Assembly (NCBI GenBank): GCA_023263995.1
Contig: JALQTQ010000008.1
Location: 341-35,843 of the forward strand
Reading direction: 5' to 3'
DNA: 35,503 bases
From: Akkermansiaceae bacterium
GTDB lineage: Bacteria > Verrucomicrobiota > Verrucomicrobiia > Verrucomicrobiales > Akkermansiaceae
Shown here: in pieces, positions 2,822 through 27,074 of the stretch
Layout: the number at the start of each line of letters is the position of its first letter
Position numbering within the stretch: the stretch's first letter is position 1
Notes under the pieces: model-generated
What the model saw: the letters and a program-made list of their open reading frames with translations, nothing else
Told to the model about the DNA's origin: nothing
Database searches by the model: none
Position numbers and translations under genes: made by a program

Positions 2822-4213
2822 TTAATTGCCACTCGGACCATGATGGGGGCTTCTTCCTGATTTGACCGCTCCCCATAGAAAGCCACAACAGACAATCGCC
2901 ACTAGTTTGAGAGACACGATTCCGAAGGGGAAATCAAAGCAGGAATGGACGCCCAACGAGATCAGGGCAACGATGATTCCGCTGGTTAAGGATCTCGAAG
3001 ATGATTTTCTTTTGCTGCGAACTGTTTTCAGTCCGACAGCAAGGCCTCCAATGGCGAGAATGAACCAGAGTGATGCCCCCAAATATCCCCACTCAGTAAC
3101 TAACTGCACTGGGTCACAGTGACCATGAAGCCAAACCCCCCGAGGGGGATCATCAGCAACGGACAAGAAAAAGGGCACGACCGTGGCGAATGACCCCGGG
3201 CCAAAACCAAACCAGCCTCCCTCGTCAATCGCGGACATCCCCAACATCACACTGATGATCTGTTTCCTACCTTCGAAGGTGGCCGCTCTTCCATCCTGAG
3301 CATCCTCAATAAAGTCGTCCATTCGGACGATCAGCTTCTGCACCCCTACTGCCCCAAAAACAAGGAATAGGACCGCGCTAGTCACCAAGAACAACTTCCC
3401 TTCAAGCTTCAAATTCCGGGGATTCTCCCTAATAGAGCGCAAAACCATCAGGACTTTCCGACGATGAAGAAAGAAAGATAATCCGACAGTGATGGCGAGG
3501 ACCAGGGTCGCGCCCTTGGAAGCGGTCGCCAAGGTTCCAAGAAAGCACATCAAGGTGAGGATGCCCCATCCCAGTGTCTTGGCAGATTTGCCATGTCCCA
3601 TGGCTGAGACCCAAAAGCCAAAACCAATCGCTCCCGCGAAATTCAAATATGCTCCGGCATGCCCGTTGTAAACGAATGGGGCAAAGAAGGTGGGAGGGTG
3701 CCTCGTGTCCATGAACCAAATCGACTCGGCGTCCAAAACCCGGTGATAGAGCCCAATCATAGTGATCGTGGCCCCCAAAATCGGGAAAACGGCCAACAGA
3801 AAGGGCCACGAGTTTGTTCGACGCCATCGGACTGCCGCCCAGAAAACCATTGAAAGCCCGGTGATCTCAATCATTTTTGCGATGCTTGCGTTTCTGGTCA
3901 TGGTCCCTGGACCTCCATCCCAGAGGCGCTGCTGGTATTCCTGAAAAGAAAGCGCCATAAAATCAAAGGAGGCTTTGGAATTCAGAACCATGAGCCAGCC
4001 GTAGCATAAAAGAATCACCAGAGTGATTGTAGCGACCTTGGAGAAAAAATGACCCGTTGATCGAGGGAGAATGAGAAGCGAAAGGAGGGACCATCCCATC
4101 GCCAGCAATACTGAATGTTTTGCGATCTCAGGGTCAGCTGATGCAAAGCGGCCAAGGACCCAGGCAACTAGAAACGCAAATAGGGTCCCCAGAACGATTT
4201 CCAATTTTTTCAT
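2822..4213 (-). CDS. O-antigen ligase/polymerase-like membrane protein (Wzy_C family)
   Basis: A 463-residue polytopic membrane protein with around ten hydrophobic segments, starting at residue 1 (MKKLEIVLGTLFAFLVAWVLG). Family hallmarks are YNGHAGAYLNFAGA (residues about 180-195), a TASKGATLVLAI segment like the S-R/K-G motif of ligases, and the periplasmic-loop motif WLHGHCDPVQLVTEWGYLG in the C-terminal third. Such proteins polymerise or transfer undecaprenyl-linked glycans at the outer face of the inner membrane. It follows the PEP-CTERM gene, as often seen in exosortase-associated polysaccharide loci. The start codon has no Shine-Dalgarno; the bases immediately before it are the U-tract of a hairpin (see terminator). 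Ligase versus polymerase cannot be decided from sequence. Confidence 0.82.
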   Translation of the reverse strand: MKKLEIVLGTLFAFLVAWVLGRFASADPEIAKHSVLLAMGWSLLSLLILPRSTGHFFSKVATITLVILLCYGWLMVLNSKASFDFMALSFQEYQQRLWDGGPGTMTRNASIAKMIEITGLSMVFWAAVRWRRTNSWPFLLAVFPILGATITMIGLYHRVLDAESIWFMDTRHPPTFFAPFVYNGHAGAYLNFAGAIGFGFWVSAMGHGKSAKTLGWGILTLMCFLGTLATASKGATLVLAITVGLSFFLHRRKVLMVLRSIRENPRNLKLEGKLFLVTSAVLFLVFGAVGVQKLIVRMDDFIEDAQDGRAATFEGRKQIISVMLGMSAIDEGGWFGFGPGSFATVVPFFLSVADDPPRGVWLHGHCDPVQLVTEWGYLGASLWFILAIGGLAVGLKTVRSKRKSSSRSLTSGIIVALISLGVHSCFDFPFGIVSLKLVAIVCCGFLWGAVKSGRSPHHGPSGN

Positions 4214-4216
4214 AAT

Positions 4217-4245
4217 AAAAAAGCTACTGGGTTAGAGTAGCTTTT
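4217..4245 (-). terminator. Intrinsic terminator/attenuator hairpin after the PEP-CTERM gene
   Basis: A perfect 10-base inverted repeat, AAAAGCTACT (4219-4228) and AGTAGCTTTT (4236-4245), with a 7-base loop. On the minus strand the 3' arm runs into six T residues (complement of A at 4217-4222) and then, after ATT, directly into the ATG of the ligase-like gene. Location, stem and U-tract fit a Rho-independent terminator for the PEP-CTERM transcript. Its position on the ligase leader suggests partial termination or attenuation. Confidence 0.75.
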
Positions 4246-4282
4246 GGGGGAGTGTGTTTGGAGAAGTTGAGGTAACGGCGAG

Positions 4283-4915
4283 CTATCGTCGACGGCCGAG
4301 AGCGAGCGAGAGCAAGGAAAGCGCAATCAAAAAGCTGCTGGAGGGCTCCGGAATAAAAGCTGGCTCATCGGGTAAGGTGTTATAACCGATCTTATCGACC
4401 AGTGAGTGGGCGGAAGAGTCGCCGATAGTTCCCTGAGGGAGCCATGTGATACGGGCAAATCCATAGTGTATACTTTCGGCAATCTCGAAGCGTAGCCCAA
4501 GATAGCCAGTTCCACCACCACTCCATTCGCCAAGGGAAGAACCAAAAGAACTATCCCAAGCGAGACTCACGAAGCCGCTCTCGAAGCTCAGCGCAGGACC
4601 AATAGAGTCCCCTTCCGAAAAGCGGCGGACCAGACTCAGGCTCCCACCATCGGTAGCAACCTGAGCGCCAGAAAGTCCCCGAGCAATCAGAAACGCTGTC
4701 GTCCCAAAGTCTTGGACCTCGAGCTCCAAGTCATCGGTTGCGTCCAACAGTGGACCTAAAGATGCGTTCAGGTTAAGGGGGGCAGCCGAGACCTCATCGA
4801 ATCTAACAGGACTCATCGCTGTCACGACTGTTGCTGCAAACGACCAAGAAGGGGCCGCTAACAACAAGCATGACAAGACGAGTTGTCTATTTAGACCATT
4901 GGAGGTGTTGATCAT
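4283..4915 (-). CDS. PEP-CTERM sorting-domain protein
   Basis: A 210-residue secreted protein. It has a Sec signal peptide (QLVLSCLLLAAPSWSFA, cleavage expected near residue 27) and a textbook PEP-CTERM tail over the last 23 residues: IPEPSSS, a hydrophobic helix LIALSLLSLALG, and a basic end GRRR. Such tails are processed by exosortases, linking the protein to surface polysaccharide export. The mature region is rich in Ser, Gly and acidic residues (SFGSSLGEWSGGGTGYLGLRF), resembling other Verrucomicrobial PEP-CTERM proteins, which end in a beta-rich domain. It is 24 bases downstream of another secreted protein gene. No exosortase gene lies in the window. AGGA sits only 1 base before the ATG, too close to be a normal ribosome site. 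Confidence 0.88.
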   Translation of the reverse strand: MINTSNGLNRQLVLSCLLLAAPSWSFAATVVTAMSPVRFDEVSAAPLNLNASLGPLLDATDDLELEVQDFGTTAFLIARGLSGAQVATDGGSLSLVRRFSEGDSIGPALSFESGFVSLAWDSSFGSSLGEWSGGGTGYLGLRFEIAESIHYGFARITWLPQGTIGDSSAHSLVDKIGYNTLPDEPAFIPEPSSSFLIALSLLSLALGRRR

Positions 4916-4939
4916 ATCCTAAGACACGGGCACTATCGA

Positions 4940-5329
4940 CTAGTTGCAGTTGTAGTCCACGCGGAGTTGAATTTTGAGAAACGCGAAAACTGCAGCTGAG
5001 TCAAAACCTTGGTTGACGAGGAAAGTGGCCATGTAAGCGGTCTTCAAAGCATCTGCGTTCTCCGTGGCCGTGGTATCAGCACCAGCTCCCGAGCCAAAAA
5101 AGAAGGCAACGGCCAAGAGGCGATTGAGATCGCCGTCGCTGACTTCATCGATCGCGTAACAAGGGGTGCTGACCGCGGGGATCAAACTACCCGGCTTGAT
5201 GATCGGAGGATTGGGAGTGTCTGCGCTGGTTTTGAAAGTCTTCAAGGTTTTCCCCGTGAAGTTCGCGAGAGAGACGGAAGGCGTCATCACAAAGACGGAG
5301 AGGACAATCACGTTGAGGAGTTTTTTCAT
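4940..5329 (-). CDS. Small secreted protein of unknown function, upstream of the PEP-CTERM gene
   Basis: A 129-residue protein with a clear Sec signal peptide (MKKLLNVIVLSVFVMTPSVSLA, cleavage near residue 22). The mature part begins with a Thr/Lys/Pro-rich linker and contains exactly two cysteines, Cys57 (STPCYA) and Cys128 (DYNCN, next to the C-terminus), which could form a disulfide. The middle, LNRLLAVAFFFGSGAGAD, is hydrophobic and Gly/Ala-rich, and the C-terminal half looks helical. No family recognised. The 24-base spacing to the PEP-CTERM gene suggests co-expression and a shared envelope role. Prediction of export is solid; function unknown. Confidence 0.75.
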   Translation of the reverse strand: MKKLLNVIVLSVFVMTPSVSLANFTGKTLKTFKTSADTPNPPIIKPGSLIPAVSTPCYAIDEVSDGDLNRLLAVAFFFGSGAGADTTATENADALKTAYMATFLVNQGFDSAAVFAFLKIQLRVDYNCN

Positions 5330-5665
5330 GAGTTCTTGGATTTGTGGAGGGTTGGCTGCCTCGCTCAGGCTTATTCCCTTCGAGACGCTTCCAAGTTGCC
5401 CCCAACGAAAATTTTTTTCAAGATTTTTTTTGGCGCTCCCAAAGAATAAATTCGGGCGAGGACTCAGCGCAGCGTTGAGAGGCTGAATTGTAGCTTTTTA
5501 TCATCGGCACGAAGGACGCCGAAAAATCATTCATCTCCCTCATGATTTGTTCTGATTTTTGGCAAGAGCTCTGAAACAAGGACCTTGCAGACGGGACAGA
5601 GGAAATTTGTGGTCCCAACTAAGGCGATGCTTGGGGCCGACTTCCTCTCGACATGCATCGGTGTC
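5330..5665. other. Intergenic region separating the large glycosyltransferase cluster from the PEP-CTERM genes
   Basis: About 336 bases lie between the end of the minus-strand GT4 gene and the start of the small secreted gene. It must hold the 3' end of the big transcript and probably a promoter for the PEP-CTERM group. The half nearest the secreted gene contains A/T runs (ATTTTTTTC, GATTTTTTTTGG at about 5410-5431). I found no strong hairpin-plus-T-run terminator and no convincing -35/-10 pair. The half nearest the GT4 gene contains a possible 43-codon ORF, listed separately. Confidence 0.5.
5527..5658 (-). CDS. Possible small ORF (43 aa) with a CPVC motif, doubtful
   Basis: This frame is too short for the ORF track. 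On the minus strand an ATG 7 bases after the GT4 stop opens a 43-residue frame reading MHVERKSAPS and then FLCPVCKVLV, ending NHEGDE. The single CxxC pair resembles half of a zinc ribbon, and the spacing to the GT4 gene is operon-like. Against it: there is no clear Shine-Dalgarno, only one CxxC, and the length is within chance expectation. Another frame (5418-5618) overlaps it. It may be a degraded remnant. Confidence 0.2.
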   Translation of the reverse strand: MHVERKSAPSIALVGTTNFLCPVCKVLVSELLPKIRTNHEGDE

Positions 5666-6955
5666 TCAGTGGACTTGCAGAAGTCGCTTGGCGATTTCCG
5701 CCCGGTTGTGGAGGCGATGAAAGTGGTTCTTCCCGAACCTCAGAGCCCGTTCCCCCTTATGGCACCTCAGGTTTTCATCGAGACATTGGTCCAGACAAGC
5801 CCTCATTTTTTCGTGATCGCCGGGAGCCACCACCCAGCCGGCTTCGGCGTCGTTAATCCACTCGCCGATCGCACAGGTTTCGCTGCCCACAAAAAGAAGA
5901 GGGCGACCCGAGGCAAAAATACCCTGGACCTTTGAAGGCACCATGCACCCGTCCCATTCAGGCTTCAGCGAGGCGAGGTGGACGTCCGCACTCAGGAGAT
6001 GGGGAGTCAAAAGCTCCTCCGCGACATAATCCCCCAGTTCCAGCGCCACGCCGGGATTCTTATCTCGGAAATCTTTCACTTCCTGCCGTCGCTTGCCATC
6101 GCCATAGAAAGCAAACAGAAGGTGCGGCCGATTTTCGCTCCATTTGGCCATGGCCAGAAAGTCCTCCAAAGAATGGCCCAGACCCATGTTGCCGGAATAG
6201 AGGAAAACGAGCTTGTTCTCCCACCCTCGCTGCTTGCGGAGCTCCCGGCTTTCGATCAAGGCATTCTCCTTGAGATCCACCCCGCTCCAAAGCGGGACGA
6301 CCGCGCAATCCTCCACGCCGTGTCCGTTTTCCAGCTTGCGGGCCATATCCGGCCCGAGGGCGATGGTGCCTTGATTCCGCTTGCCTCCGAAACCCCACCG
6401 GGAAAGACCTCGAAGAACTCTTGCTTTCAGGCTGCCTTCTTTGAAAAGGCCGTGGGCCACCATGACATCGGGATAAAGATCCATGACCCAATGGGCATGC
6501 CGGGCTCCGCGGAACTTTGAGACAAAGCGGGCGAGAACCCCAAGATAGGGCGGCGTGGTCATCGCGACATAACAAGTCGGTCGACCTCTCACCGTCAGGG
6601 CACCGAAGAAGGCGAAAAGATAAAAGCTGGCGTAGTCGCAAAGCTTCCCGAGGACGGTCTGACGCCCGAAGCGAAACGTCGGAACGCGGATGACCTCCAC
6701 CTGCCTTGAGGAGTCTGGCGGCTCGTTCCTATTGCTTCTCCCGGCCCCGGAATACCCGCCCCGGGAACAAAGAATGGTGACCCGGATTCCCCGGGCCACC
6801 ATTTCATCGGCGACATCCCGCAACATCACTCCAGTCGGAGCAAGGTCGGGAGGGTAATATTGATTGAGAAAGACGAAGTGTGGCTGTTTGGCGGTCACGA
6901 GGGGTTCGGGTTGCGTGAAAGTAGGTTCGGACCTTGATGTTTCTGTTTTTGTCAA
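5666..6955 (-). CDS. Glycosyltransferase family 4 (WcaI/WbuB-like)
   Basis: A GT-B glycosyltransferase of 429 residues. The N-terminal acceptor domain begins FVFLNQYYPPDLAPTG near residue 27, characteristic of WcaI/WbuB-type enzymes. The C-terminal donor domain has YSGNMGLGHSLEDF and KVQGIFASGRPLLFVGSE. It would transfer a sugar from a nucleotide donor to a lipid-linked glycan on the cytoplasmic face of the membrane. The start is a TTG: no ATG or GTG lies sensibly near the domain start, and an AGGAG sits 9 bases upstream. It is the last gene of the large cluster and is separated from the GT2 gene before it by 163 bases, so it may have its own promoter. Sugar specificity unknown. Confidence 0.9.
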   Translation of the reverse strand: MTKTETSRSEPTFTQPEPLVTAKQPHFVFLNQYYPPDLAPTGVMLRDVADEMVARGIRVTILCSRGGYSGAGRSNRNEPPDSSRQVEVIRVPTFRFGRQTVLGKLCDYASFYLFAFFGALTVRGRPTCYVAMTTPPYLGVLARFVSKFRGARHAHWVMDLYPDVMVAHGLFKEGSLKARVLRGLSRWGFGGKRNQGTIALGPDMARKLENGHGVEDCAVVPLWSGVDLKENALIESRELRKQRGWENKLVFLYSGNMGLGHSLEDFLAMAKWSENRPHLLFAFYGDGKRRQEVKDFRDKNPGVALELGDYVAEELLTPHLLSADVHLASLKPEWDGCMVPSKVQGIFASGRPLLFVGSETCAIGEWINDAEAGWVVAPGDHEKMRACLDQCLDENLRCHKGERALRFGKNHFHRLHNRAEIAKRLLQVH

Positions 6956-6964
6956 GAATTTTTA

Positions 6965-6969
6965 CTCCT
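6965..6969 (-). promoter_or_regulatory. Shine-Dalgarno deciding the TTG start of the GT4 gene
   Basis: AGGAG on the minus strand (CTCCT on the plus strand), 9 bases before the TTG at 6955. It is one of the few clear ribosome sites in this locus and is the main reason for accepting the TTG start. Confidence 0.65.
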
Positions 6970-7104
6970 AAACGCATCGCGTGAATTTTTGCATCTTTAG
7001 GAAGTTTTTCGCCGAGAGGCGGAGTAAATCTTAAAAAGAATGAATTTTATTCGCTTTGAAAAGAGCTTCACCTCACGCAACTGTGGCCTGTGCTGAGAGT
7101 GTTC

Positions 7105-7941
7105 TCATCCACCGCCGCGTGAGCCAAGCGATTCCTTCTCAGATTCCCCCTCGGTCACCTTAGCGGTGATCAGGAAATCGTAAAAGCCTTGGAGTAAGCA
7201 GTAGACAAAGCCGGGGTAGCCATCGAGAAATCCTCGTTTCCAAAGGTAGAGGTAGCAAAACTTCAGCAACCACCGCCCCGGCATCCGGGCATGCAGTCGC
7301 TTCATGGCCCGCTTGCGCGCCATCCCTCCGCGGAACAAATCACCCAGCGGGATCGGGCCGGTGATTAAATCGCTGGCCTCGGCCGCCTCCTCGGACGAAT
7401 AGCGATTGTGCTTGGCGACCCAGTCGGTGATTCCCTTCGAAAAGTTGTAGTGATCGTAGGGAGTCCCGATGGACCCAATCCCCCGTTTGGCCTCGCCTTC
7501 CCGTTGGCCGTGTCCCGATTTTTGAAAGCGAACCTCGCCCACCTTCAACAAGCGGACTTGGGGGTAGGGATACTGGGTAGAGCGACGAATCCAGCGCCCG
7601 AGGAAGATAATGCGATTGGGAACAAAAAAGGCGCTATGACGGTCCTCCCGGATCGCCCGTTCACATTCCTCTCGGAGATCGTCGTTGAAGTGCTCATCGG
7701 CATCGAGATGAAAGACCCATGGGTGTTTAAAAGGAATCTCATCAAGGGCGTAATTGCGCTGCGCTCCAAAATCATCAAAAGGACGCTCGAAGACCCTCGC
7801 CCCGCTTTTTCGAGCGACCTCACGGGTTTCGTCTTCACTCAGCGAATCGAGTACGACCACATCGTCGCACCAGGCAACGCTCTCAAGACACGAAGGAAGA
7901 TTTTTTTCCTCGTTTTTGGTGAGAATAAGAACGGAAAACAT
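7105..7941 (-). CDS. Glycosyltransferase family 2 (WaaE/KdtX-like)
   Basis: A 278-residue GT-A enzyme. I start it at the ATG at 7941, where FSVLILTKNEEKNLPSCL opens the canonical GT2 fold; the ORF-track extension to 8190 only reads into the upstream gene in a wrong frame. Donor-binding residues: VVLDSLSEDET (about 29-39) and the DxD motif HLDADEHF (residues 80-82). The C-terminal part (FCYLYLWKRGFLDGYPGFVYC) is a hydrophobic tail common in the LPS-core beta-1,4-glucosyltransferase-like subgroup. It starts 16 bases after the aldo/keto reductase stop, so it is co-transcribed with it. Specificity unknown. Confidence 0.88.
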   Translation of the reverse strand: MFSVLILTKNEEKNLPSCLESVAWCDDVVVLDSLSEDETREVARKSGARVFERPFDDFGAQRNYALDEIPFKHPWVFHLDADEHFNDDLREECERAIREDRHSAFFVPNRIIFLGRWIRRSTQYPYPQVRLLKVGEVRFQKSGHGQREGEAKRGIGSIGTPYDHYNFSKGITDWVAKHNRYSSEEAAEASDLITGPIPLGDLFRGGMARKRAMKRLHARMPGRWLLKFCYLYLWKRGFLDGYPGFVYCLLQGFYDFLITAKVTEGESEKESLGSRGGG

Positions 7942-7957
7942 GGCTGACGTGCAGTCT

Positions 7958-8794
7958 TCAGGCGTCCCCGGCAGCCGCGGCATTCTCACGGATGTGCTCC
8001 GGGTTGAACATGGAACAGAGAACCACGCTGGCGGGGAAGTCGGACCAAAGCTGGGACAAGACCGATGAGGCTGGAGTGCTCCCGGCATGGCGAAGAGGGG
8101 AAAACAAGACGTTGGGCGAGGCGGCTCGCTCCTGCCGGGCCGCTTCATAGTGAGCAGCTCCCGGCGAAGCGTTAAATTGGAGGAGATCAAAGCGGGAAAA
8201 AGTGGACCTTAAAAGAGCCTCACTCGACCAATCGAAGGCGAGACCCCAAGCACGGATTTTTCCTTCCTTCTTTAGCTCTGCGGCCATTGCGACAAGATCG
8301 TCGATCCGCTTGATCTCGCTTGGAGGTTCGTGCACGAAAAAGAGGTCGAGATAGTCGGTTCCCAGAGCTCGGAGGGATTTTTCGAGACTTCCCCGCATTT
8401 TGTCTGGAGTGAGATCAACCCGTTCGTGAAAGGGATCGGACGACTTTGCAGGAGCCGCGGCAGCGGGCGCCGGAAGAGATGCTTTCCGTGATCCCTTGAG
8501 CTTTCGCACCACTGGTTTGAGAGGCCGCAGGAGACCGGCCTTCCAGGTCGCTCGAATGCCGAACTTGCTCGCAATCACGACCTCCCCGCGGTGCCCTTTC
8601 AAAAAGCGGCCGACGAATTTCTCGGCCTCTCCGTATCCGTAGGATCGCGCGAGGTCGAAGTGGTTGACGCCACAATCGAGAGCGGTGGCCATTGCCCTCG
8701 CCGCAGCAGCTCCCCCCACTGCACCGAGGATCGGGGCACAACCGAAGCCGAGAACGGATGAAGAGATTCCGGGAGCCAGTTCAACTTGTTTCAT
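7958..8794 (-). CDS. Aldo/keto reductase family protein
   Basis: A 278-residue NAD(P)H-dependent reductase. The start is the ATG at 8794 (MKQVELAPGISSSVLGFGCAP), overlapping the GMC oxidoreductase end by 14 bases; the ORF-track extension is a shadow. The full AKR catalytic tetrad is visible: Asp47 and Tyr52 (FDLARSYGYGEAE), Lys77 (VIASKFG), His155 (LFFVHEP). A Pro/Ala-rich insert (SLPAPAAAAPAKSS, about 107-119) sits between Lys77 and the YLDLFFVH strand. AKRs reduce carbonyls to alcohols. The tight link to a flavin oxidase suggests the pair acts on the same sugar or polyol, possibly oxidation then re-reduction. The substrate is not known. Confidence 0.9.
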   Translation of the reverse strand: MKQVELAPGISSSVLGFGCAPILGAVGGAAAARAMATALDCGVNHFDLARSYGYGEAEKFVGRFLKGHRGEVVIASKFGIRATWKAGLLRPLKPVVRKLKGSRKASLPAPAAAAPAKSSDPFHERVDLTPDKMRGSLEKSLRALGTDYLDLFFVHEPPSEIKRIDDLVAMAAELKKEGKIRAWGLAFDWSSEALLRSTFSRFDLLQFNASPGAAHYEAARQERAASPNVLFSPLRHAGSTPASSVLSQLWSDFPASVVLCSMFNPEHIRENAAAAGDA

Positions 8795-10448
8795 GTCGCT
8801 CGGAAAGATGGCGGGCCAACCGGAGGGCAAAGACCCCCAGCATGAAGGTTGGGTTGGCTTGGCCGGAAGTCGGGAAAGCCGAACTACTGCAAAGATGAAG
8901 GTTCCGAGTTCCCCAGACCCGGAGATTCCGGTCAACCACCCCCTTCTCGGGCTCATCCGCAATCCGGGTGGTACCGGACTGGTGAATCCCGTCCCGGGAC
9001 ATTGCCCGGATGGCCTCGGGAAGTTCTTCGCGCGAGAACCAATATCGCAACTCCCCACAGCCGTTCTTTTGTAAGGATTGGTCGAGGACCTCGTGGAGCC
9101 GAATCACCGATTCGACATCCCGGTCAGTGAGATGATAGTGAATTTCGAGGGTCTCTCCGTCAGGCGCGAGCACCATGCGGTTCTCAAAATGCGGGATCTG
9201 CTCGGCATGGAAATGCAAAGCATAACGGTTTTTCCGGTTGTAGAGAAAAATGCCGGGCAACTTCCGCTTCAAACAGTACCGCCGGAAAAAAATCGAGGCG
9301 GGAATCCAAAGCGACCCGGGCAAACCCTTGAGGACGTTCCAGACGTGTCGCGGCAGGCGATTGACCCGGCCCTTGGTGATCGAATGGGCAATCGCGGGTG
9401 GAGCCAGACGTTTCCCCAAAACCGGAGTGACCATGGCGAGATACATGGCCGACATCGCTCCACTACCGTGAGAAGGATCATGATAAAGCGGGTTGTCCAA
9501 CCAGATCGCGGTATTGAGTAGATCTTCGCGGACAAGGAATTCAGGGTCGAACTGAAAACGTCGGCGATAGTAGCATCCATCGGAATCACGCCCAAAATCA
9601 TAGTCGGTCTGGCGAGGATCTCCGTGGAACTGAACACTGGCGATTTTGCCCGAAAGATGGCCTTGGTAGTAACACCCGAGCGCCGTGGGTACGCCCCCCC
9701 GGCGCACAAACACGCGAGGGTTGCGCAAGAGGAGCCGCGTCGTTTCCTGAGTCCCGGCCGCGACCACAAAGTCCCGCGCCCGCACGGTCATGTTCCTGCC
9801 ACCATCGAGGCTTCGGAAGTCGAGCGATTCGATGATTTGCGCATCGGAGACCTCGCCAAAATCCCGGGCCTCCCAGCCGGTGAGCAGGTGAATGTTTTTG
9901 GACTTGGCAAGGTCATCACGATATCGAACCCCAAACCGTGTCGGCATGCTCCAACGCTCCAACGCGGAATCCGTGACCTCGTCGGATGAAAAGCCCTGAG
10001 CGATGGGACCTACGCGGGCTTCCTTGATATCCCGAAGATCAAATCCGCCCCGCCCACACTCGAAATAGGCGGCCGCAGCATCCACGTAAGGCCGACATTC
10101 CTCAAAGAGCGATGGGTCCCAAGTGCAACCACCATTAAGAGAAGGGCGATCGATAAAATCGACCGGATCATAGAGCACACAACGCCCCCCCCAGGTCGCC
10201 GAGGTCCCTCCAAACCCCTTGTTGGTGCATTCATAGGGGTCGTGATGGTTGGTGGGGTTATGATTGATGATACCATCGTCGAGGCCGTTCTTACCAGTCC
10301 CCCCGAGCTCGCCGTATTCCACCAAAAGCACCTTTTGGTCAGGATTCAGGCGGGCATACTCCATTGCCACCATCAGGCCGCCCGGACCGCTTCCCACGAC
10401 ACACAGATCATAGACCTGCCCAAAAACCTGTTCCTGCGAAATAATCAC
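8781..10448 (-). CDS. GMC family FAD-dependent oxidoreductase
   Basis: A 555-residue flavoprotein starting at GTG (10448), 1 base after the acyltransferase stop (TGA-A-GTG). The N-terminal FAD-binding Rossmann motif is CVVGSGPGGLMVAMEYA (residues 16-32) with the ribose-binding Glu in LLVEYGELGG. GFGGTSATWGGR fits the GMC signature region. The C-terminal GMC domain ends with IHQSGTTRI (His489) and TSGQANPTF (Asn532), the usual His/Asn active-site pair, and VVDRNLRVWG. GMC enzymes oxidise alcohols in sugars, choline or polyols. No signal peptide, so cytoplasmic. Here it is clearly embedded between a hexapeptide acyltransferase and an aldo/keto reductase, which argues for a role in sugar modification rather than catabolism. 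Confidence 0.9.
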   Translation of the reverse strand: MIISQEQVFGQVYDLCVVGSGPGGLMVAMEYARLNPDQKVLLVEYGELGGTGKNGLDDGIINHNPTNHHDPYECTNKGFGGTSATWGGRCVLYDPVDFIDRPSLNGGCTWDPSLFEECRPYVDAAAAYFECGRGGFDLRDIKEARVGPIAQGFSSDEVTDSALERWSMPTRFGVRYRDDLAKSKNIHLLTGWEARDFGEVSDAQIIESLDFRSLDGGRNMTVRARDFVVAAGTQETTRLLLRNPRVFVRRGGVPTALGCYYQGHLSGKIASVQFHGDPRQTDYDFGRDSDGCYYRRRFQFDPEFLVREDLLNTAIWLDNPLYHDPSHGSGAMSAMYLAMVTPVLGKRLAPPAIAHSITKGRVNRLPRHVWNVLKGLPGSLWIPASIFFRRYCLKRKLPGIFLYNRKNRYALHFHAEQIPHFENRMVLAPDGETLEIHYHLTDRDVESVIRLHEVLDQSLQKNGCGELRYWFSREELPEAIRAMSRDGIHQSGTTRIADEPEKGVVDRNLRVWGTRNLHLCSSSAFPTSGQANPTFMLGVFALRLARHLSERHETS

Positions 10449-10449
10449 T

Positions 10450-11058
10450 TCACTCCGTTGGTTGAGGCAATTTGCTGGTCAGCCCCGGGCGTTCACCCCG
10501 ATCCCGGATACCACATTTTCGGGCGGGATTCCCGGCATTAACCGACCACGCTTCGAGGTCCCGACTGGCCACTCCGCCCGCCCCGAGCACCGCGCCTTCG
10601 CCGCAGGTGACTCCGGGAAGAATGATGGCCCGGGCACAGATCCAGGCATAGGGTTCGATGCGGATTGCCTTGCTGATCAATTCGAAGTCGGCACTCTGGT
10701 AGTTGTGGGTGGCCCCACACACGAACGCCTCCTCCGAAACAATGGCGTGGTGGCCGATGGTGACGCCTCCCACATTGTAGACGAAAGCCTTGCGAGCGAT
10801 TGTGACGACTTCGCCGGTTTCCAATAACCAGGGAGCCCAAATTCGGGCACTGGGATAAATGAAATTATTGCGACCCAAGCGGGCCCCAAAACGCCGCAGA
10901 ACCCAGCAGCGCCAGCGATGCATCCCCGGGGGGGTGGGCCGACACAGGAAGGTCCAGGTGACATTCCACAAAGCCCGGCCGATCTTGCTTGGCCAGCTTT
11001 GAGCGGGCCTCATCAGGGCATCAGGGTGATCCGCACGATGTTGTTCAAGAAAGGCCAT
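10450..11058 (-). CDS. Left-handed beta-helix acyltransferase (WcaF-like)
   Basis: A 202-residue hexapeptide-repeat O-acetyltransferase. After an N-terminal helix region (SKIGRALWNVTWTFLCRPTP, typical of WcaF-type colanic acid acetyltransferases) come hexapeptide turns: ARLGRNNFIYPSARIWAPW, VTIARKAFVYNVGGVTIGHHAIVSEEAFVCG, then the THNYQS loop and IILPGVTCGEGAVLGAGGVASRD. The catalytic His is expected in the CGATHNY segment. It would use acetyl-CoA to acetylate a sugar hydroxyl in the cytoplasm. The stop is 1 base from the GMC start, so the two are translationally coupled; 53 bases separate it from the DUF218 gene upstream. Confidence 0.88.
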   Translation of the reverse strand: MAFLEQHRADHPDALMRPAQSWPSKIGRALWNVTWTFLCRPTPPGMHRWRCWVLRRFGARLGRNNFIYPSARIWAPWLLETGEVVTIARKAFVYNVGGVTIGHHAIVSEEAFVCGATHNYQSADFELISKAIRIEPYAWICARAIILPGVTCGEGAVLGAGGVASRDLEAWSVNAGNPARKCGIRDRGERPGLTSKLPQPTE

Positions 11059-11111
11059 TCACGCAAAGGACGATGGAGGAGAGATAGGGACCAAAAGCGC
11101 CACGGGAAAGA

Positions 11112-11753
11112 TCAAAAAATCCAGATCCCATGGACGAAAAGGTTGTGGAGAACCGCAAGACGCTCTCGCCGTTCGCAATAGGTGTACCAATTGCTCGGCT
11201 CTGCCGGTCGGCCATCAAAGACGGCCTGAAACTCCCGATCGGGGGATTCATCCGAAAAGATCGCCAAGGCACGCGGAGCGTGAAATCCATCGGTCACCAA
11301 GGCCACCCGACGCGCCTTCAAGCGGGCCAGCCAATCTCGCGTGAACCGAGCATTTTCCACAGTCGAGGTGGCCTCAGTTTCATGAGTGAGGCGGGACTTC
11401 TTCACTCCACCGTCGATCAACTGCTGATAAAGCACTCCACCATCTCCGGTAACAACGAGCGGAACGTCAGGGTATTGCTTCGCCAGAGTGATGGCCTGCT
11501 TACCCCGTGCCAAGTCTCCGCCACCGAGAACGACAATCGCATCAGGTTTCCAAGAAAGCGGCTCCGGAAGGGGATCGGGCCACGTTCCCCACATGATCCA
11601 CGATCCCAAGAGCAGCCCAATGACGAAAAGCAGCAAAGCACCACGGCGAACCCATGGGAAGATGCGCGTGGTCAGCGACTCACCGGATTGACTCGTCGTC
11701 GTCTTCAAATCGTTTCCACGAAATCCGGCGGGGCTCCTCCGTTGAGAACCCAC
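11112..11753 (-). CDS. DUF218 (YdcF/SanA-like) membrane-anchored protein
   Basis: A protein of up to 213 residues with one N-terminal transmembrane segment (ALLLFVIGLLLGSWIMWG, about 39-56) followed by a periplasmic DUF218 domain: PDAIVVLGGGDLARGKQAI, VVTGDGGV, TSTVENARFTRDWL, and ALVTDGFHAPRA. DUF218 proteins are linked to envelope or polysaccharide functions in several bacteria, but their reaction is not well defined. The ORF-track GTG overlaps the upstream GT4 by 49 bases; a TTG at 11708 forms a TTGA overlap with the GT4 stop, a junction type seen elsewhere in this cluster, and may be the true start. Confidence 0.82.
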   Translation of the reverse strand: MGSQRRSPAGFRGNDLKTTTSQSGESLTTRIFPWVRRGALLLFVIGLLLGSWIMWGTWPDPLPEPLSWKPDAIVVLGGGDLARGKQAITLAKQYPDVPLVVTGDGGVLYQQLIDGGVKKSRLTHETEATSTVENARFTRDWLARLKARRVALVTDGFHAPRALAIFSDESPDREFQAVFDGRPAEPSNWYTYCERRERLAVLHNLFVHGIWIF

Positions 11754-12928
11754 TGGTAGAGTGTCTTCATCTGAGTCGCGACCTGCGGCCAGGTGAATTG
11801 CTTCTCCACAAGCTGACGTCCATTCGCGCCCACTCTTTGCAGGGCCTCGGGTGAGGCCTGCAAGAGCTCCCGCATTCCCGCTGCGATGCTTTGCACATCA
11901 GTTCCAAGCAGGAAGGCGGCCTCGGCCGCAAAGCCCTCGGGCAGGTTGCAATGCTCCGTCATCAGGACCGGCAGTTCGTAGGCCCAAGCCTCGAGCACTG
12001 CCACCGGCAGGCCTTCGCTGAAGCTTGGGAGGATAAAGGCACTGGCATGCCTGAGCAGCCGGTCTTTTTCTTTTCCGAAAGCCGGGCCGGTGAAGACCAC
12101 CTGCGCGCCCTCTCCTCCGGTGTCTGGTGCCCGGTCCCGAGCCGCGAGATGCTCCTCGACCGAGGTCTTGGCGAACGACAATCCGAGTTCCCGACACAAG
12201 CTCTCCAGTTCTTCCTGATGCCCCCCTTGATCCCAACCCGCCACCACCAGCTGCCAGGCCTGATGTCCCGTTGCACCATCTTGCCCCGACTGCATCTGGG
12301 CAAACGCCTGCAAGGCATTGGGAAGTCCCTTTTTAGGATGCAACCTTCCCAAAAAGAGCAAGACCTTGCAGCCCTTCAACTTTTCTCTCCCGATCACCCG
12401 AGCGGGCAAGTCCACGCCATTGGGAATGATCGCCACCGGATTGCGCAAACCCAGTGCACGAATCGATTGAGCCTCCGAACGGCAAAGGGCGTGAAGGCAA
12501 TCCGCTTTCCCAAGGCAACGACGCTCAAAAAGAAGCATGGCCAGCTTCTTGCGCAGACGACCATTGCCCAACGCCCACGGATCCAACATCCCGTGTGGGC
12601 TCACCACCCTCTTGAGTTGTGGAGCACACCGAGAGCCGACCACAATCGAAGGCTGCCCCCACAGGCCGTGGGTGTGAACGAGATCAGGCGCGACCTTTTC
12701 CAAGTGCCTCGGGAGGTTCTTGCCCCACAGCACGGGACCGAATCGACGGGCGGGCAAGATCTCCGGTAGGCCAGGCGGCCATTCAGGCAAGGTCTCGCCT
12801 CCGTCCTCCGGCGCAAAGACCAGGGGGTCTATCCCACACGCTTGCTGAGCGTTGACCAAGGAACGAAGAGCAAGAGCAATGCCTCCCCCAAGGGTGGACA
12901 CCGATCCGGTAAGATGGGCCACTTTCAT
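11705..12928 (-). CDS. Glycosyltransferase family 4
   Basis: A 407-residue GT-B enzyme. Acceptor domain: AHLTGSVSTLGGGIALALRSL at the start, VHTHGLWG near residue 85 and SPHGMLDPWALGNG near residue 115, a motif shared by a broad GT4 subgroup. Donor domain: FLGRLHPKKGL and PSFSEGLPVAVLEAWAYELPVL, with the E-x7-E pair that binds the nucleotide sugar. A spacer of about 30 residues (SVEEHLAARDRAPDTGGEGA) interrupts the donor domain before VFTGPAFG. The ATG overlaps the polymerase stop as ATGA (12925-12928), so translation is coupled. Specificity unknown. Confidence 0.92.
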   Translation of the reverse strand: MKVAHLTGSVSTLGGGIALALRSLVNAQQACGIDPLVFAPEDGGETLPEWPPGLPEILPARRFGPVLWGKNLPRHLEKVAPDLVHTHGLWGQPSIVVGSRCAPQLKRVVSPHGMLDPWALGNGRLRKKLAMLLFERRCLGKADCLHALCRSEAQSIRALGLRNPVAIIPNGVDLPARVIGREKLKGCKVLLFLGRLHPKKGLPNALQAFAQMQSGQDGATGHQAWQLVVAGWDQGGHQEELESLCRELGLSFAKTSVEEHLAARDRAPDTGGEGAQVVFTGPAFGKEKDRLLRHASAFILPSFSEGLPVAVLEAWAYELPVLMTEHCNLPEGFAAEAAFLLGTDVQSIAAGMRELLQASPEALQRVGANGRQLVEKQFTWPQVATQMKTLYQWVLNGGAPPDFVETI

Positions 12929-14433
12929 GGGCGGGGAGATTCAGAAAGAGGCGGGGCGGACCGCTCCCCATTGGGCTCGGAGGAAGTATTTCGCGGGCGG
13001 AGATTTGTGCCCTTTCGTCGGGGCGGGACCGGTGGAACAGGCCGATACACTCCAAAATACATCGCCGCCTGCAGCCCTCCCCACCCGAAAACGAAGGGAT
13101 AAAGCACCAACAAGGTAATGTCGCGCCCCATGTTGAAGGTCAAGATCATGCCCACCGAGAAAAGAAGCATGCGGGCCGGATCACGCCCCAGCAAATCCTG
13201 CCGGGCTAGAATCGACACCCAGAGCGACATCAGAAAGGCCGCCGCCATGGGCCCCAAGAAAGCCCCGAAATTGACAATCCCCTGTCCGATCATTCCAGTG
13301 GCAATAGACGCATGCACTCCTCCGGAAGCCCCGGAAGCGTTTTCCGAAGCAAACCCCCTCGCCACCGCATAATCCAAACCAACGGTCGGCTTACTGGGCC
13401 ACAGGGCGCGGGGAATGGGATTGACCAGCTCGGCAAAGTAACGTCCTCCCCAATTCGGTTTCAACGTCCCTTTCTCAAAGAAGGAATTGATGTAACCCAA
13501 CTCCGAGAACATCGACAAGCCCTCGTGACGCGTTTCCTCGACCCGCTTCAGGGCACCTTTTTTTCCGATCTGGGATGAAATTGACCCTTCGTTTCGATTC
13601 GCAAGGACGAAACTGAACCAGAAGTTGATGGCCAGAAAGGCGCCCGCGAGAATGGCGGCTTTTGTCCAGGGGCCGGACCGGAGCCGGAGGAAGACCCAAG
13701 CCAACAGCCCAGGCAAGGCCACCGCAATCATGGTGTTGCGGGTGCGGTCGAGGAAATAGTAGGGCAAGGCCAAGACACAAACCGTCAGAGCCATGGTCCG
13801 AGTCGAGGAATTGCGACACACCGCCCCAAAAATTCCAAAGGAAGCCGTGAGCAGGATTTGAAGGTAGCCCGCCAAAGACAAGACAGCATCGACCCCTCCA
13901 CCCATTCGCCCCCGGAACCACGGGTTCTGCTTCTCTCCAAGATAAGGTGCAAAAAGACCGATGAAATCAAACTTCACCCGCAGGAGGGCAACTCCCATCA
14001 AGAGCAACCAAGCGTAAAAGAGTAACCACGCCACCTTGTCCAATTGTCGCTGCATGTCCCGGGTCTGCAGCATGTTGGTCTCGTAGTAGAGCATGGTGCG
14101 GCTCCGATACCGCAGAAAGCGCTGGTTGAAGAATTGGTTCACCGGCTGCACGATCACCCCGAATACCACCAGAAACCACAAGACTTGCCACCAGGCGGCC
14201 TCCAAGGCTTCGTTGCCCATCTTCTCCTGATACTCAGCATAGTCGTTGTAGAGCCCGTCCCCGTAATACCAGGCCCCCACCGTGGCCAAAACCATACCGG
14301 TGGGAATCCCCCAGCCCTCCTGACGACCATTCCAAGCGTAAAGCAAGAGAATCCCAATCAAAATCAAACCCAAAAAGAAGGGCGTCGGGAAGAGAGCGAG
14401 TTGGTCCATACTTTCAGGGGGGCTGAAGAACAC
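12925..14433 (-). CDS. Wzy-like O-antigen polymerase
   Basis: A membrane protein of about 500 residues with roughly ten to twelve transmembrane segments, beginning FFLGLILIGILLLYAW. It contains Wzy-type features rather than strict domains: ALPYYFLDRTRNTMIAVALPGLLAW mid-protein, a long loop with NRNEGSISSQIGKKGA, PIPRALWPSKP, and a late membrane motif NMGRDITLLVLYPFVFGWG. The C-terminus is a Pro/Arg-rich cytoplasmic tail. It would polymerise repeat units in the periplasm. The GTG at 14433 is 8 bases after the APH-like gene; the ATG at 14409 (MDQLALFPTP) is an equally possible start. It is quite different from the ligase-like protein at 2822, so the locus has two membrane polymerase/ligase candidates. 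Confidence 0.72.
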   Translation of the reverse strand: MFFSPPESMDQLALFPTPFFLGLILIGILLLYAWNGRQEGWGIPTGMVLATVGAWYYGDGLYNDYAEYQEKMGNEALEAAWWQVLWFLVVFGVIVQPVNQFFNQRFLRYRSRTMLYYETNMLQTRDMQRQLDKVAWLLFYAWLLLMGVALLRVKFDFIGLFAPYLGEKQNPWFRGRMGGGVDAVLSLAGYLQILLTASFGIFGAVCRNSSTRTMALTVCVLALPYYFLDRTRNTMIAVALPGLLAWVFLRLRSGPWTKAAILAGAFLAINFWFSFVLANRNEGSISSQIGKKGALKRVEETRHEGLSMFSELGYINSFFEKGTLKPNWGGRYFAELVNPIPRALWPSKPTVGLDYAVARGFASENASGASGGVHASIATGMIGQGIVNFGAFLGPMAAAFLMSLWVSILARQDLLGRDPARMLLFSVGMILTFNMGRDITLLVLYPFVFGWGGLQAAMYFGVYRPVPPVPPRRKGTNLRPRNTSSEPNGERSAPPLSESPRP

Positions 14434-14441
14434 TCCTAAGG

Positions 14442-15488
14442 TTACTTGGCAAGTTGTGCCAAGAACTCTTTAAAATCCGGTCGTTGACAGGCTTGAAGGA
14501 GGGCGCTGGCCGGAGAAAAACGAAGGAGGTGTAGGAAAGCGAGCGCCAAAATCAGTTCGGCCCGACTCGTCGAATCTTTCCCGGCAAAGAGGGCCTGAAA
14601 GAAACGCCGACACTCCGCCGCACCGGGGTCGGGATTCTGATTCCACCATTGATCAACTTTCAGGCACAACTCGTCGGTGCGCCGAGGGCCATCCTCCCGA
14701 CTTTGCTCCCAATCGATAACCCAGAGATCCGACCCATCCCGCAGGACGTTCGTCCGATTCAAATCGCCGTGCACCCGACCAACATTCCAACCCGAACGGG
14801 AAACCTCCCGGATCACCTCCTCAAAGCCCGGGAAATCCCGGCAGCCTTGTAAGAGCTTGTCCCACCACGACGGTGGATTCGGGGCCCCCAGCACGAAGGG
14901 AGCAGTGTTGATTTCCGCGACCAGAGCACTCACCCCAGCCTCTTTTTCCCAGTCCACTGCCGACGCCGAGGCGGGCAGACAAGCCGTTACCAGAAAATCC
15001 GCGCCTTCCCACGCCCCCGAAGCCAGAAGACGAGGCACGCAGAACGATTGAGGCGGTGAGGCTTGAAAAGACTCCAGAACGCGAGCCTCGTTGCGGATCT
15101 TCTCCCCGTTGGCCTCGTTCAGGGCCAACTTCCCAAAAGCCCGCGGAACGCCATTCGCTCCCAAAAAATAAAGATAAAGACGCCCCCGTCCAGGATCGCC
15201 AGGCCAAATGACGAAGGGCCAGATAGGAGTGCCTCCCAGTATCTCGACCACCCGATGAAGCCAATCGTCGAATCCAACCGACGACATCCCGGGAGGCGCG
15301 AAGGGCCTAGACGGTCTGAGGAGATTCAAGATCCTGCTGCGAAATCCCAATCGAATCAGTCGCCGCAACAGACGCTTTTTCCCGGTATGCCCGGGATAAC
15401 ACGCCACGGCCGCACGTTGCAGCAAGGAGCTGCCTTCGGGCACGGCCATCAGGGGCCTGCCCCCAAGCTGGATCTGATGAAACCTCAC
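14442..15488 (-). CDS. Aminoglycoside phosphotransferase/choline-kinase-like protein
   Basis: A 348-residue protein with an APH-type kinase fold in its C-terminal two thirds. The catalytic loop GRVHGDLNRTNVL (His240, Asp242, Asn247) and the metal-binding LWVIDWEQS (Asp259) are intact. A candidate ATP-binding Lys is in AFGKLAL (Lys120), with Glu in NEARVLESF. The first 80 residues are Arg/Leu-rich and unassigned. Family members phosphorylate small molecules such as sugars, choline or aminoglycosides. Its ATG overlaps the stop of the nucleotidyltransferase-kinase fusion (ATGA, 15485-15488), so the two proteins are likely to work together, perhaps adding a phosphorylated substituent to the glycan. 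The substrate is inferred only from context. Confidence 0.8.
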   Translation of the reverse strand: MRFHQIQLGGRPLMAVPEGSSLLQRAAVACYPGHTGKKRLLRRLIRLGFRSRILNLLRPSRPFAPPGMSSVGFDDWLHRVVEILGGTPIWPFVIWPGDPGRGRLYLYFLGANGVPRAFGKLALNEANGEKIRNEARVLESFQASPPQSFCVPRLLASGAWEGADFLVTACLPASASAVDWEKEAGVSALVAEINTAPFVLGAPNPPSWWDKLLQGCRDFPGFEEVIREVSRSGWNVGRVHGDLNRTNVLRDGSDLWVIDWEQSREDGPRRTDELCLKVDQWWNQNPDPGAAECRRFFQALFAGKDSTSRAELILALAFLHLLRFSPASALLQACQRPDFKEFLAQLAK

Positions 15489-16876
15489 CCCTCTTGATTC
15501 TCCTTCCCGCGGGGAGGCACAAACTCCGGGACCCGATTCAAAAAGACTTGTTCCACCTTTTCCCGCACCTCTCTGACTGTCGCTTCAATTCCACCCGAAG
15601 CATCCACGATCAAGCCATGAGACCGTTTCTCCACCAGTTGCCGGATCCGCTCCTGCTGGCGGGCGATTTCAGCCACCTCAAGCTCGGGCTTGCCATCGTA
15701 AATGGCCTGCGGGTCACGCTCCAAGGCAATGACAAGATCAGGCTTCGGCAAAAAGAGCTCGAGCAAACGAAGATACCAACGCGGCACCCGCTGATACCCT
15801 CGCTGGTAATGGTAGTCGTAAAAGTAACGGGCAAACATCAAGAGCGCCCCCTGCCCACGCAATTTTTTCACCAACAGATGACCCAAGAAGAAATCGAGAG
15901 CATAGTAAGTGACGTAAAACATACCCACCAATGGCGGGTGGTCCCGATTCATTCCTGAGCCCCTGGTTCCCGGTTCCACGACCTCGACCGGCTTCACCGG
16001 ACGACCGAGGAGCCGAGCCAGGCGCGCCTTGATCTGCTTCATTTCCGGCAAAATCCGGAACTGGTATTCGAAGCGACGGCAAATCTTGTAGGGCTTCTGA
16101 TAGAGCTCTTCCGCCACTTGGTCAGCAATCGTGCTCTTACCCGAACCATCAGGCCCGAGCAAGACCACGAAGGCGTGCATCGTCGGACTGAGGGTGTGCC
16201 GCAGGGTCGAAAAGAAAAAGCGAATCCCATCTCCCGAAAAAGGACTCACGGTCGCTTCCACGCTCTCCCGGATGCGCGGAGCAAGCGCCTCCACCCCATC
16301 CCAATCACCATCTTGGCAGCACCGCAAAAGATCCTCGCAGAGGTCTTCGCCGAGGATGTCGCCCACCGCTTCCCGAAAGCTCACGGCATCTTTTTGAACA
16401 CCACTCCGGGTCTCCTCCCGAGAGTTTTCCTTGTAGCGCGGATGACGCGTCAATTCCTTCAATAGGGAAACAGCCGCCCCGAACCCCTCCGGCACGACCC
16501 AGACCCCGGCTTCGTTTCGGTGACGCTTTTGCAAACCAACCTCACTGCGGGCAATGGGATAAAAGCGATGGAGACAGCCCCCGAAAAGATCGACCGGAAG
16601 ATAGCACCGGGTCGGCCCGGGACTGATCGCCAAGCAGCACCGATACCGGTCTTTGTCCACAATCGGAACGATGGTCCACCCGACAAGACGAGCAGCCCGG
16701 CGCAACACTCCTTCGACCCGATCCAAATCCTTGGGGTCAATCAGGAGGTCGATATCGTATCGGGTCTCATTCGGTAAGCCCTCAGCTCCGCGAAGGACCG
16801 CCCAAGGCAAGCCTGCCGTATCAAGATCCGCAAAAAACCGTTGGACCAGAGGCCCGATAGAAGGTGGGGCATTCAA
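15485..16876 (-). CDS. Fusion of nucleotidyltransferase-like domain with thymidylate-kinase-like P-loop domain
   Basis: The N-terminal part resembles a nucleotidyltransferase: LPWAVLRGAEGLP then YDIDLLIDPKDLD, where the Asp pair DID (residues 41-43) would bind metal. The C-terminal part is a P-loop kinase with Walker A LLGPDGSGKST (about 240-249), a lid-like Arg-rich region and PDLVIALERDPQ, as in thymidylate kinases. The ORF track starts at a GTG (16993) that overlaps the upstream GT4 by 76 bases, which is unlikely; I use the TTG at 16876, leaving 41 bases between genes. A CTG overlapping the GT4 stop (CTGA at 16918-16921) is another option. The domain pairing occurs in other polysaccharide loci but its reaction is unknown to me. 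Confidence 0.78.
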   Translation of the reverse strand: MNAPPSIGPLVQRFFADLDTAGLPWAVLRGAEGLPNETRYDIDLLIDPKDLDRVEGVLRRAARLVGWTIVPIVDKDRYRCCLAISPGPTRCYLPVDLFGGCLHRFYPIARSEVGLQKRHRNEAGVWVVPEGFGAAVSLLKELTRHPRYKENSREETRSGVQKDAVSFREAVGDILGEDLCEDLLRCCQDGDWDGVEALAPRIRESVEATVSPFSGDGIRFFFSTLRHTLSPTMHAFVVLLGPDGSGKSTIADQVAEELYQKPYKICRRFEYQFRILPEMKQIKARLARLLGRPVKPVEVVEPGTRGSGMNRDHPPLVGMFYVTYYALDFFLGHLLVKKLRGQGALLMFARYFYDYHYQRGYQRVPRWYLRLLELFLPKPDLVIALERDPQAIYDGKPELEVAEIARQQERIRQLVEKRSHGLIVDASGGIEATVREVREKVEQVFLNRVPEFVPPRGKENQEG

Positions 16877-16917
16877 AATGGAAAAGAAATTGTGAGACGA
16901 AGGGTAGGAAGCGGAGA

Positions 16918-18075
16918 TCAGGGGATCAACCTCTGTTCGCCCTCCACGGCCACGGCGGCCCAAAAACTCCGAGCAAAGTCCGCCGGTGTCCACTCGGAAA
17001 TAATCTCGAGGGATCGCTGACCCATCGCGTCGCGATCGGGAGAAGTCGCCATGGCGGCCAGAACACCACCCATCGATGAAATTTCACCCGGATCAAAGCG
17101 AAAACCATTTTCGCCTTCCCGGACCAGATCGTAACAGGCACCGACTGTTTCTGAACAGAGGACCGGAAGCCCACACGCCATGGCTTCGTTGACGACCAAA
17201 CCCCACTGCTCCTGCAGGGCCGGATGAACGAAGGCCCCGGCAAGAGCGTAGTAAGCCACCAGTGACTCAAATTGTTGAAATCCGGCAAAGGTGACATCAG
17301 GGACCCGGCCTGACTCGACCTGCGACCGCAACTGCCCCTCGTCAGGGCCCGTTCCCAGAATGACAAGACGCCAGCCGTCCGAATGATCCCCCCGATAAGC
17401 CGCATATGCCTGGATCAATCGAGGAAGATTTTTTCGGGCAATAAAACGGCTCGAGACCAAAAAAAACGGGCGCTCGTCCTCGAGGCCCGGTAACTGGCGG
17501 TAGGGAACGGGATCCGCCCTGACCCTTTCGGCCGCCGCCCGAAATCGTTCGTTATCGACGACGTCGTAACGGTCAAAAATGCGGCCCGGTGGCATCCCGA
17601 GTTGTTCAAGATAGGCACGATGAGGGCTACCTCCACATAAGGCACTGTCGAAGCGACGCACCAAGCGGCTCTTGAGCCACTCCTTCCACCAGACCCGCGG
17701 TGCATCGTCGGCTTTCGACTCCGTCATCATGACACGACAGACCCTTTTGCGGCGGGCCCACTCGAGCGCGGCCCGCGAGTCAGTCATACCATAACCCGAA
17801 ATCCCCACCACCGCAGGGCTCAACTCAGCGAGAATTCCCTGCATCGCTTGACGCACCCTCGCCTTTGGGAGTTCGTGGTACATTTCGTCCGGGAAAAGAG
17901 TTTCCACCCGGAGATCCTTCCCGTCTTCACCCGCTTCCCAAGGCCGCCCCTGCACCTGGCCTGCCACCGCCAAGCCAATGACTTCCACTCCGGCAGGCGC
18001 GGCTTCAACGCAAGCTCGCAAGCGAGCAGTATGATAAGGCCCAAAGCTGGGCCAATGTAAGACGACGCGCGACAT
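16918..18075 (-). CDS. Glycosyltransferase family 4
   Basis: A 385-residue GT-B enzyme. N-terminus VVLHWPSFGPYHTARL; the acceptor half includes GISGYGMTDSRAALEWAR and MMTESKADDAPRVWWKEWLKS, a segment I associate with a subgroup that has FDSALCGGSPHRAYLEQLG. Donor half: FFLVSSRFIARKNLPRLIQAY, ILGTGPDEGQLRS, and the donor-binding EQWGLVVNEAMACGLPVL. It starts 6 bases after the next upstream GT4 stop, so the two GT4 genes are co-transcribed. It probably adds one sugar of the repeat unit on the cytoplasmic face. Specificity cannot be read from sequence. Confidence 0.92.
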   Translation of the reverse strand: MSRVVLHWPSFGPYHTARLRACVEAAPAGVEVIGLAVAGQVQGRPWEAGEDGKDLRVETLFPDEMYHELPKARVRQAMQGILAELSPAVVGISGYGMTDSRAALEWARRKRVCRVMMTESKADDAPRVWWKEWLKSRLVRRFDSALCGGSPHRAYLEQLGMPPGRIFDRYDVVDNERFRAAAERVRADPVPYRQLPGLEDERPFFLVSSRFIARKNLPRLIQAYAAYRGDHSDGWRLVILGTGPDEGQLRSQVESGRVPDVTFAGFQQFESLVAYYALAGAFVHPALQEQWGLVVNEAMACGLPVLCSETVGACYDLVREGENGFRFDPGEISSMGGVLAAMATSPDRDAMGQRSLEIISEWTPADFARSFWAAVAVEGEQRLIP

Positions 18076-18081
18076 AGATTC

Positions 18082-19308: not shown

Positions 19309-19346
19309 TGAATGTGCTGGATTTTTCGCCTGATTGATTTTTCAGC

Positions 19347-21151: not shown

Positions 21152-21206
21152 TTTCCTTAAAGCTTCTCAGCATCCACTAAGGATGACTCAAAGGCAAAAC
21201 CAGCAT

Positions 21207-22334: not shown

Positions 22335-22366
22335 ACATCATTTTTCTAGAGCCTACATGAATGCCA

Positions 22367-27070: not shown

Positions 27071-27074
27071 GAGC

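Follow-up and report, generated by a model that had tools for sequence, protein, structure and literature searches.

The locus described here raises the question of why an oxidase gene and a reductase gene are coupled within a cluster of glycosyltransferase genes, and what the two enzymes might do together. The window (the whole stretch of DNA that was analysed, 35,503 nucleotides) is largely occupied by a polysaccharide locus at 2822..35460 (-), which encodes an O-antigen ligase/Wzy-like protein, many glycosyltransferases of families GT2, GT4, GT8 and GT11, acyltransferases, a CDP-glucose 4,6-dehydratase pathway and a methyltransferase. Within this locus, one block is transcribed in the order WcaF-like hexapeptide acyltransferase (10450..11058 (-)), GMC-type FAD oxidoreductase (555 aa, 8781..10448 (-)), aldo/keto reductase or AKR (278 aa, 7958..8794 (-)), GT2 glycosyltransferase (7105..8190 (-)) and WcaI-like GT4 glycosyltransferase (5666..6955 (-), 3' of the GT2 gene). 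A 14-base overlap of the GMC and AKR genes and a one-base gap to the WcaF-like gene had been noted in the preliminary description, and the coordinates bear out both: the end of the GMC gene and the start of the AKR gene share 8781..8794 (-), with the sequence ...CGACATGAAACAAGTTGA..., and the acyltransferase gene, directly upstream, ends one base before the GTG start of the GMC gene, just 5' of which lies a GGAG motif. The gene arrangement suggests that the overlap likely provides translational coupling. The AKR gene ends with a stop at 7958, and its listed open reading frame opens further upstream than the ATG at 8794, where we placed the start because homologues show that start. The open frame of the GT2 gene, directly downstream, extends to 8190; since homology begins near 7940, its true start probably lies after the AKR stop.

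Both proteins can be placed in known superfamilies. The oxidoreductase has the GMC C-terminal domain PF05199 (2e-17, 64 bits against a cut-off of 24.6) with the catalytic His and His/Asn pair, and thus falls within the GMC superfamily; the N-terminal FAD-binding domain PF00732 gave no match to the window protein at E 1e-3 and a relative scores below its cut-off, with a GxGxxG motif nevertheless present and GMC enzymes as the nearest folds. The reductase matches PF00248 (5e-29, over profile positions 18-161 of 291 only) and carries the Asp/Tyr/Lys/His tetrad on a TIM barrel, with AKR folds among its Foldseek matches, as expected of the AKR superfamily. The active-site residues named beforehand, GMC His489/Asn532 and AKR Asp47/Tyr52/Lys77/His155, are found at those positions and are conserved among relatives: position 489 of the GMC protein is H in 53/53 and position 532 is N in 50/53, and the tetrad D47/Y52/K77/H155 is invariant in 21/21 AKR relatives. 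AlphaFold2 models were confident for both proteins (pLDDT 91 for GMC and 90 for AKR). For GMC, Foldseek returned fructose dehydrogenase, C-glucosyl oxidoreductase, FAD glucose dehydrogenases, C-glycoside oxidase and pyranose 2-oxidases as the nearest solved folds, all remote (about 16% identity, TM about 0.6); judged by the predicted model, the nearest structural relatives of the window GMC act on sugars, and the bacterial pyranose 2-oxidases, the C-glycoside oxidases and the large subunit of fructose dehydrogenase, the closest of these folds, oxidise sugar hydroxyls. We know of no AKR partner of any of these three. The pyranose oxidase equivalog TIGR02462 was matched by the GMC protein far below its cut-off (32 bits against 544.9) and over a C-terminal stretch only. 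In the AKR model the tetrad is ordinary and the C-terminal half is shortened. The protein shares its fold and catalytic tetrad with PA4992, perakine reductase, L-galactose dehydrogenase and an Agrobacterium AKR with NADPH and glucose (7bc1), from which it differs by its low identity (about 19-23%) and by the longer C-terminal half that most of them possess; to our knowledge, none of these four has a GMC partner. The adjacent acyltransferase scores below the curated cut-offs of the WcaF models (111 bits against 326 for the colanic acid acetyltransferase model TIGR04008, and 152 of 192 bits for NF007797), a result for which the earlier label 'WcaF-like' is apt; on these profile scores, it is a general hexapeptide acyltransferase, and plain 'WcaF' is too strong.

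We determined how far the arrangement extends by a scan of 85 thousand genomes with three closer GMCs as query, which yielded about 50 good relatives of the GMC protein. One particular GMC subfamily and one particular AKR clade, to which the window AKR belongs, are neighbours, whichever gene comes first, in Verrucomicrobiota, Acidobacteriota, a "Bacteroidetes" MAG, Burkholderiales and Hyphomicrobiales. The AKR gene directly adjoins the GMC gene in, among others, L014, L016, L027, L031, L033, L034, L041, L050, L052, L063, L070, L071 and L072, is convergent with it in L036, L043 and L082, and lies 6-12 kb away in the same locus in L028 and L053; the two genes overlap or abut in, for example, L033, L034, L041, L052, L063 and G825. 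In a genome of the window's genus (G020), the GMC end left on the contig is 72% identical over 39 residues and the AKR is 61% identical, and the order GMC-AKR-GT2-WcaI-like GT4 is that of the window; L016 keeps the order of the window block as far as its contig extends, with a GT2 and then a WcaI-like GT4 gene after the pair. The order acyltransferase-GMC-AKR-GT2 is repeated in the MAG titled Bacteroidetes (L031; 54, 60, 51 and 37% identity), acyltransferase-GMC-AKR occurs in Aquabacterium (L033), and in a genome of the window's class (G133) the acyltransferase gene is followed by AKR and then GMC. L031 and L033 have a homologue of the WcaF-like acyltransferase gene upstream of the pair, and L112 has one upstream of AKR-GMC. 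In G006, another glycosyltransferase locus carries AKR and then GMC, the reversed order, with proteins about 30% identical to those of the window. Because it recurs across phyla, the GMC/AKR coupling is not due to chance. A search for adjacent GMC and AKR genes inside glycosyltransferase loci had been proposed in the preliminary description, with a lack of conserved neighbourhood named as the outcome that would tell against the pair; the search found such pairs, mostly in polysaccharide loci, and their recurrence across phyla speaks against that outcome. The GMC gene was present in 4/97 close relatives and 2/388 genomes of the phylum sample (counts that include the window's own genome), and therefore its presence is patchy and a simple vertical lineage trait is ruled out; transfer is probably responsible for this distribution. 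No GMC relatives were found on viral contigs.

The strength of the association was quantified in 318 Hyphomicrobiales genomes, drawn evenly across the order, by comparing the coordinates of matches to an AKR-clade profile and a GMC profile. The former detected 21 genes in 20 genomes and the latter matched in 50 genomes. Fourteen of the 21 clade AKRs were adjacent to a GMC gene, 13 of them within about 300 bases and one 1.3 kb off with a glycosyltransferase gene between, and all 11 of the top-scoring GMCs had an AKR beside them (11/11). The AKR profile was built from paired AKRs, a possible bias in these counts that is reduced, not removed, by the bimodal scores (147-407 vs <=105 bits) and by a separate Pfam scan. 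Chance adjacency, at about 0.001 per gene, is ruled out by 14/21 in one order and by the fact that the paired AKRs form a clade. The remaining clade AKRs comprise three from genomes in which no GMC was found (G806, G796 and G767), the second AKR of G467, and three from genomes with a GMC gene elsewhere (G667, G639 and G608); among the GMC relatives, an AKR is absent in 45/76 rows. Given these lone GMC relatives and the 7/21 clade AKRs with no GMC nearby, either protein may act alone or with other partners. A clade AKR with no nearby GMC is also found on the Mesorhizobium plasmid pMLb (L030, 10001-11008), close to genes for an FkbM methyltransferase and an AMP-binding protein.

The phylogenies of the two proteins are also linked. 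AKRs beside GMCs fall within a 22-row set (SH-aLRT 98; 17 paired, 4 from the same or similar loci and 1 second copy), outside which fall the 27 other AKRs of those genomes and two divergent paired AKR rows (L014 and L112). Among 22 genomes that carry a GMC relative with no AKR beside it, a clade AKR is present in one only (313 bits), and the others score <=105 bits. GMC and AKR distances were correlated over 24 adjacent pairs (r 0.83, with 0 of 10000 permutations as high), a value to which shared species history contributes, and r was 0.68 when the set was thinned to 14. The adjacency label clusters strongly on the GMC tree, where it requires at least 8 changes on well supported branches. In addition, GMC and AKR are fused in one frame in Curvibacter lanceolatus (L046; PF05199 at 446-568 and PF00248 at 615-791) and in a second Comamonadaceae genome (L188), whose 832-aa single frame has the same make-up and is 71% identical to L046. 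A frameshift artefact behind the fusion is ruled out by this second genome, in which the same single frame runs through GMC and AKR. Thus, adjacency across phyla, fusion, co-varying trees and a single AKR clade indicate, at the level of gene and protein comparison, that GMC and AKR are a real, conserved functional pair, in agreement with the coupling proposed earlier.

The genomic context is mostly that of polysaccharide assembly. Polysaccharide-assembly markers occur in 24/29 paired loci, against 9/35 GMC-only loci (Fisher p 6e-6) and 0/8 distant GMC loci; several of these markers themselves derive from paired loci, and several paired loci are close relatives of each other, so that the effective number is smaller. 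When only markers derived from the window were used and the window was left out, the effect was smaller and held (15/28 paired vs 5/35 unpaired, p 0.001). Two recurrent types were seen in alphaproteobacteria: in one, GMC-AKR accompanies an alginate-lyase-family protein, an undecaprenyl-phosphate sugar transferase and a polysaccharide deacetylase; the other comprises a sugar transferase, a deacetylase, Wzy, GT4, WecG, GMC, AKR and a GNAT acetyltransferase, in a locus conserved in several genomes (L172-L176). Five of the 29 paired loci (L027, L034, L046, L072 and L043) have no polysaccharide marker, and the pair is therefore not confined to glycan assembly. These five, among them the Cupriavidus metallidurans locus (L027) with a second GMC and further oxidoreductase genes in its vicinity, would fit a pair that acts on a non-sugar or free small molecule, such as a polyol, a cyclitol or a lipid head group, with its presence in sugar loci being incidental; set against the markers in 24/29 paired loci and the action of the nearest GMC folds on sugars, this explanation appears very improbable.

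With some preference over its alternatives, we favour the view that the pair is a two-component oxidoreductive sugar epimerase, fused in some species; no other reading accounts as well for a fused oxidase-reductase pair. The GMC flavoenzyme would oxidise a single secondary hydroxyl on the ring of a sugar building block, giving a ketone, with the electrons passing to the enzyme's FAD and on to a further acceptor, and the AKR would then use NAD(P)H to reduce this ketone from the other face, yielding the epimer. Oxidation followed by reduction of one hydroxyl would change the stereochemistry only. Because the two proteins are fused and co-evolving, a shared intermediate is most likely for an FAD-dependent oxidase and an NAD(P)H reductase, and linkage, fusion and context all support the epimerase reading. 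For the window locus and most of the others, the predicted product is a rare sugar that forms part of a surface polysaccharide or of its precursor, and the adjacent hexapeptide acyltransferase may acetylate that precursor. Action on the precursor is assumed to be in the cytosol; no export signal was obvious by eye at the N-terminus of either GMC or AKR. That both enzymes act on one substrate and one carbon, by way of a ketone and with inversion, is inferred, as are a carrier, an acceptor and a place in the cytosol. A narrower proposal, which we advance tentatively, is that of an undescribed and widespread GMC/AKR epimerase, sometimes a single fused protein, that would act in polysaccharide assembly by inverting one ring hydroxyl on a sugar linked to a nucleotide or to undecaprenyl.

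The main rival to the epimerase reading is redox isomerisation or two-site tailoring, in which GMC oxidises one position and AKR reduces another carbonyl of the molecule with no inversion, for example C2 oxidation plus C1 reduction to convert an aldose into a ketose. Pyranose 2-oxidases are among the fold neighbours of GMC, and fusion and co-variation would fit isomerisation equally well; the anomeric carbon, however, is blocked in a nucleotide- or lipid-linked sugar, and a free sugar is less expected at that point of a polysaccharide locus, and we regard this rival as unlikely. To judge by a title cited in PMC4513209 (Leitner 2001), an in vitro cascade of pyranose oxidase, a GMC enzyme, and aldose reductase, an AKR, exists for redox isomerisation of disaccharides. 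Face selectivity also counts against the epimerase reading, as AKR reduction can be poorly selective (DepB gives 67:33; PMC9427786). Another alternative is that the two enzymes serve non-consecutive steps of one pathway, the GMC keto sugar being used by others, such as an aminotransferase, while AKR reduces a different intermediate. Genes for DegT/DnrJ aminotransferases lie directly beside AKR-less GMC relatives (L008, 6584-9734; L035, 8356-11731), an arrangement which suggests that the GMC ketone may be aminated there instead of reduced, and 7/21 clade AKRs have no GMC neighbour, both in keeping with separate steps; yet the fused genes of two species, the existence of adjacent pairs in either order and the strong co-variation favour direct cooperation, and we think separate steps quite improbable.

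The epimerase reading has parallels in known systems. By its proposed function, the window pair resembles DprE1/DprE2, the mycobacterial decaprenylphosphoryl-ribose 2'-epimerase, in that an FAD oxidase and an NAD(P)H reductase act in turn on one sugar hydroxyl for a cell-envelope glycan. DprE1 is a VAO-type (FAD_binding_4) enzyme and DprE2 is an SDR, whereas the window proteins are GMC and AKR, with no family common to either part; the earlier suggestion of the same logic in different protein families thus holds for the families, with inversion itself remaining the proposed part. For DprE1/DprE2, oxidation and then reduction of one hydroxyl is established (PMC9993113, PMC4366402), and the two proteins co-purify as a complex (PMC9993113). 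In the epimerisation of deoxynivalenol by DepA/DepB, oxidation to the 3-ketone is followed by re-reduction by an AKR to the epimer, and an AKR thus already serves as the reducing half of a two-step epimerisation (PMC9427786); the oxidase there differs in being a quinone-dependent (PQQ) dehydrogenase, the substrate is a mycotoxin and not a glycan, and DepB belongs to AKR18. The preliminary description knew of no described example of a GMC/AKR version. In the open-access literature searched, which does not amount to proof of absence, we likewise found no natural, genetically linked GMC/AKR pair in polysaccharide loci; DepA/DepB (PMC9427786) and, as far as its title tells, the in vitro work with pyranose oxidase and aldose reductase are partial precedents. 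If true, the epimerase reading would add a further, independently evolved inversion of sugar stereocentres by oxidation and re-reduction in bacteria, carried out by two families not known to do so together in nature, and would account for the repeated occurrence of this gene pair in polysaccharide loci from several phyla. The pair could then serve to flag rare sugars in polysaccharides that are as yet uncharacterised, and the fused protein would be a one-protein catalyst for rare-sugar synthesis.

Several other features of the window deserve mention. Genes for glucose-1-phosphate cytidylyltransferase (TIGR02623, 458 bits) and CDP-glucose 4,6-dehydratase (TIGR02622, 475 bits) are located at 28152-31446 (-) and are accompanied by RmlC-like and RmlD-like genes; based on this gene content, the locus probably yields an unusual sugar, a CDP-linked 6-deoxyhexose. 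At the window edge lies a gene for a DUF1552 (HXXSHH) protein (528-1868 (+)), and a DUF1800 protein is encoded at the end of the G006 locus. Among the glycosyltransferase genes, the region 12925-16993 (-) encodes a 502-aa protein with no family match, an APH/RIO-like kinase and a thymidylate-kinase-like P-loop domain protein, the last of which is also present in the G006 GMC/AKR locus (L014, 14997-16265, E 4e-10).
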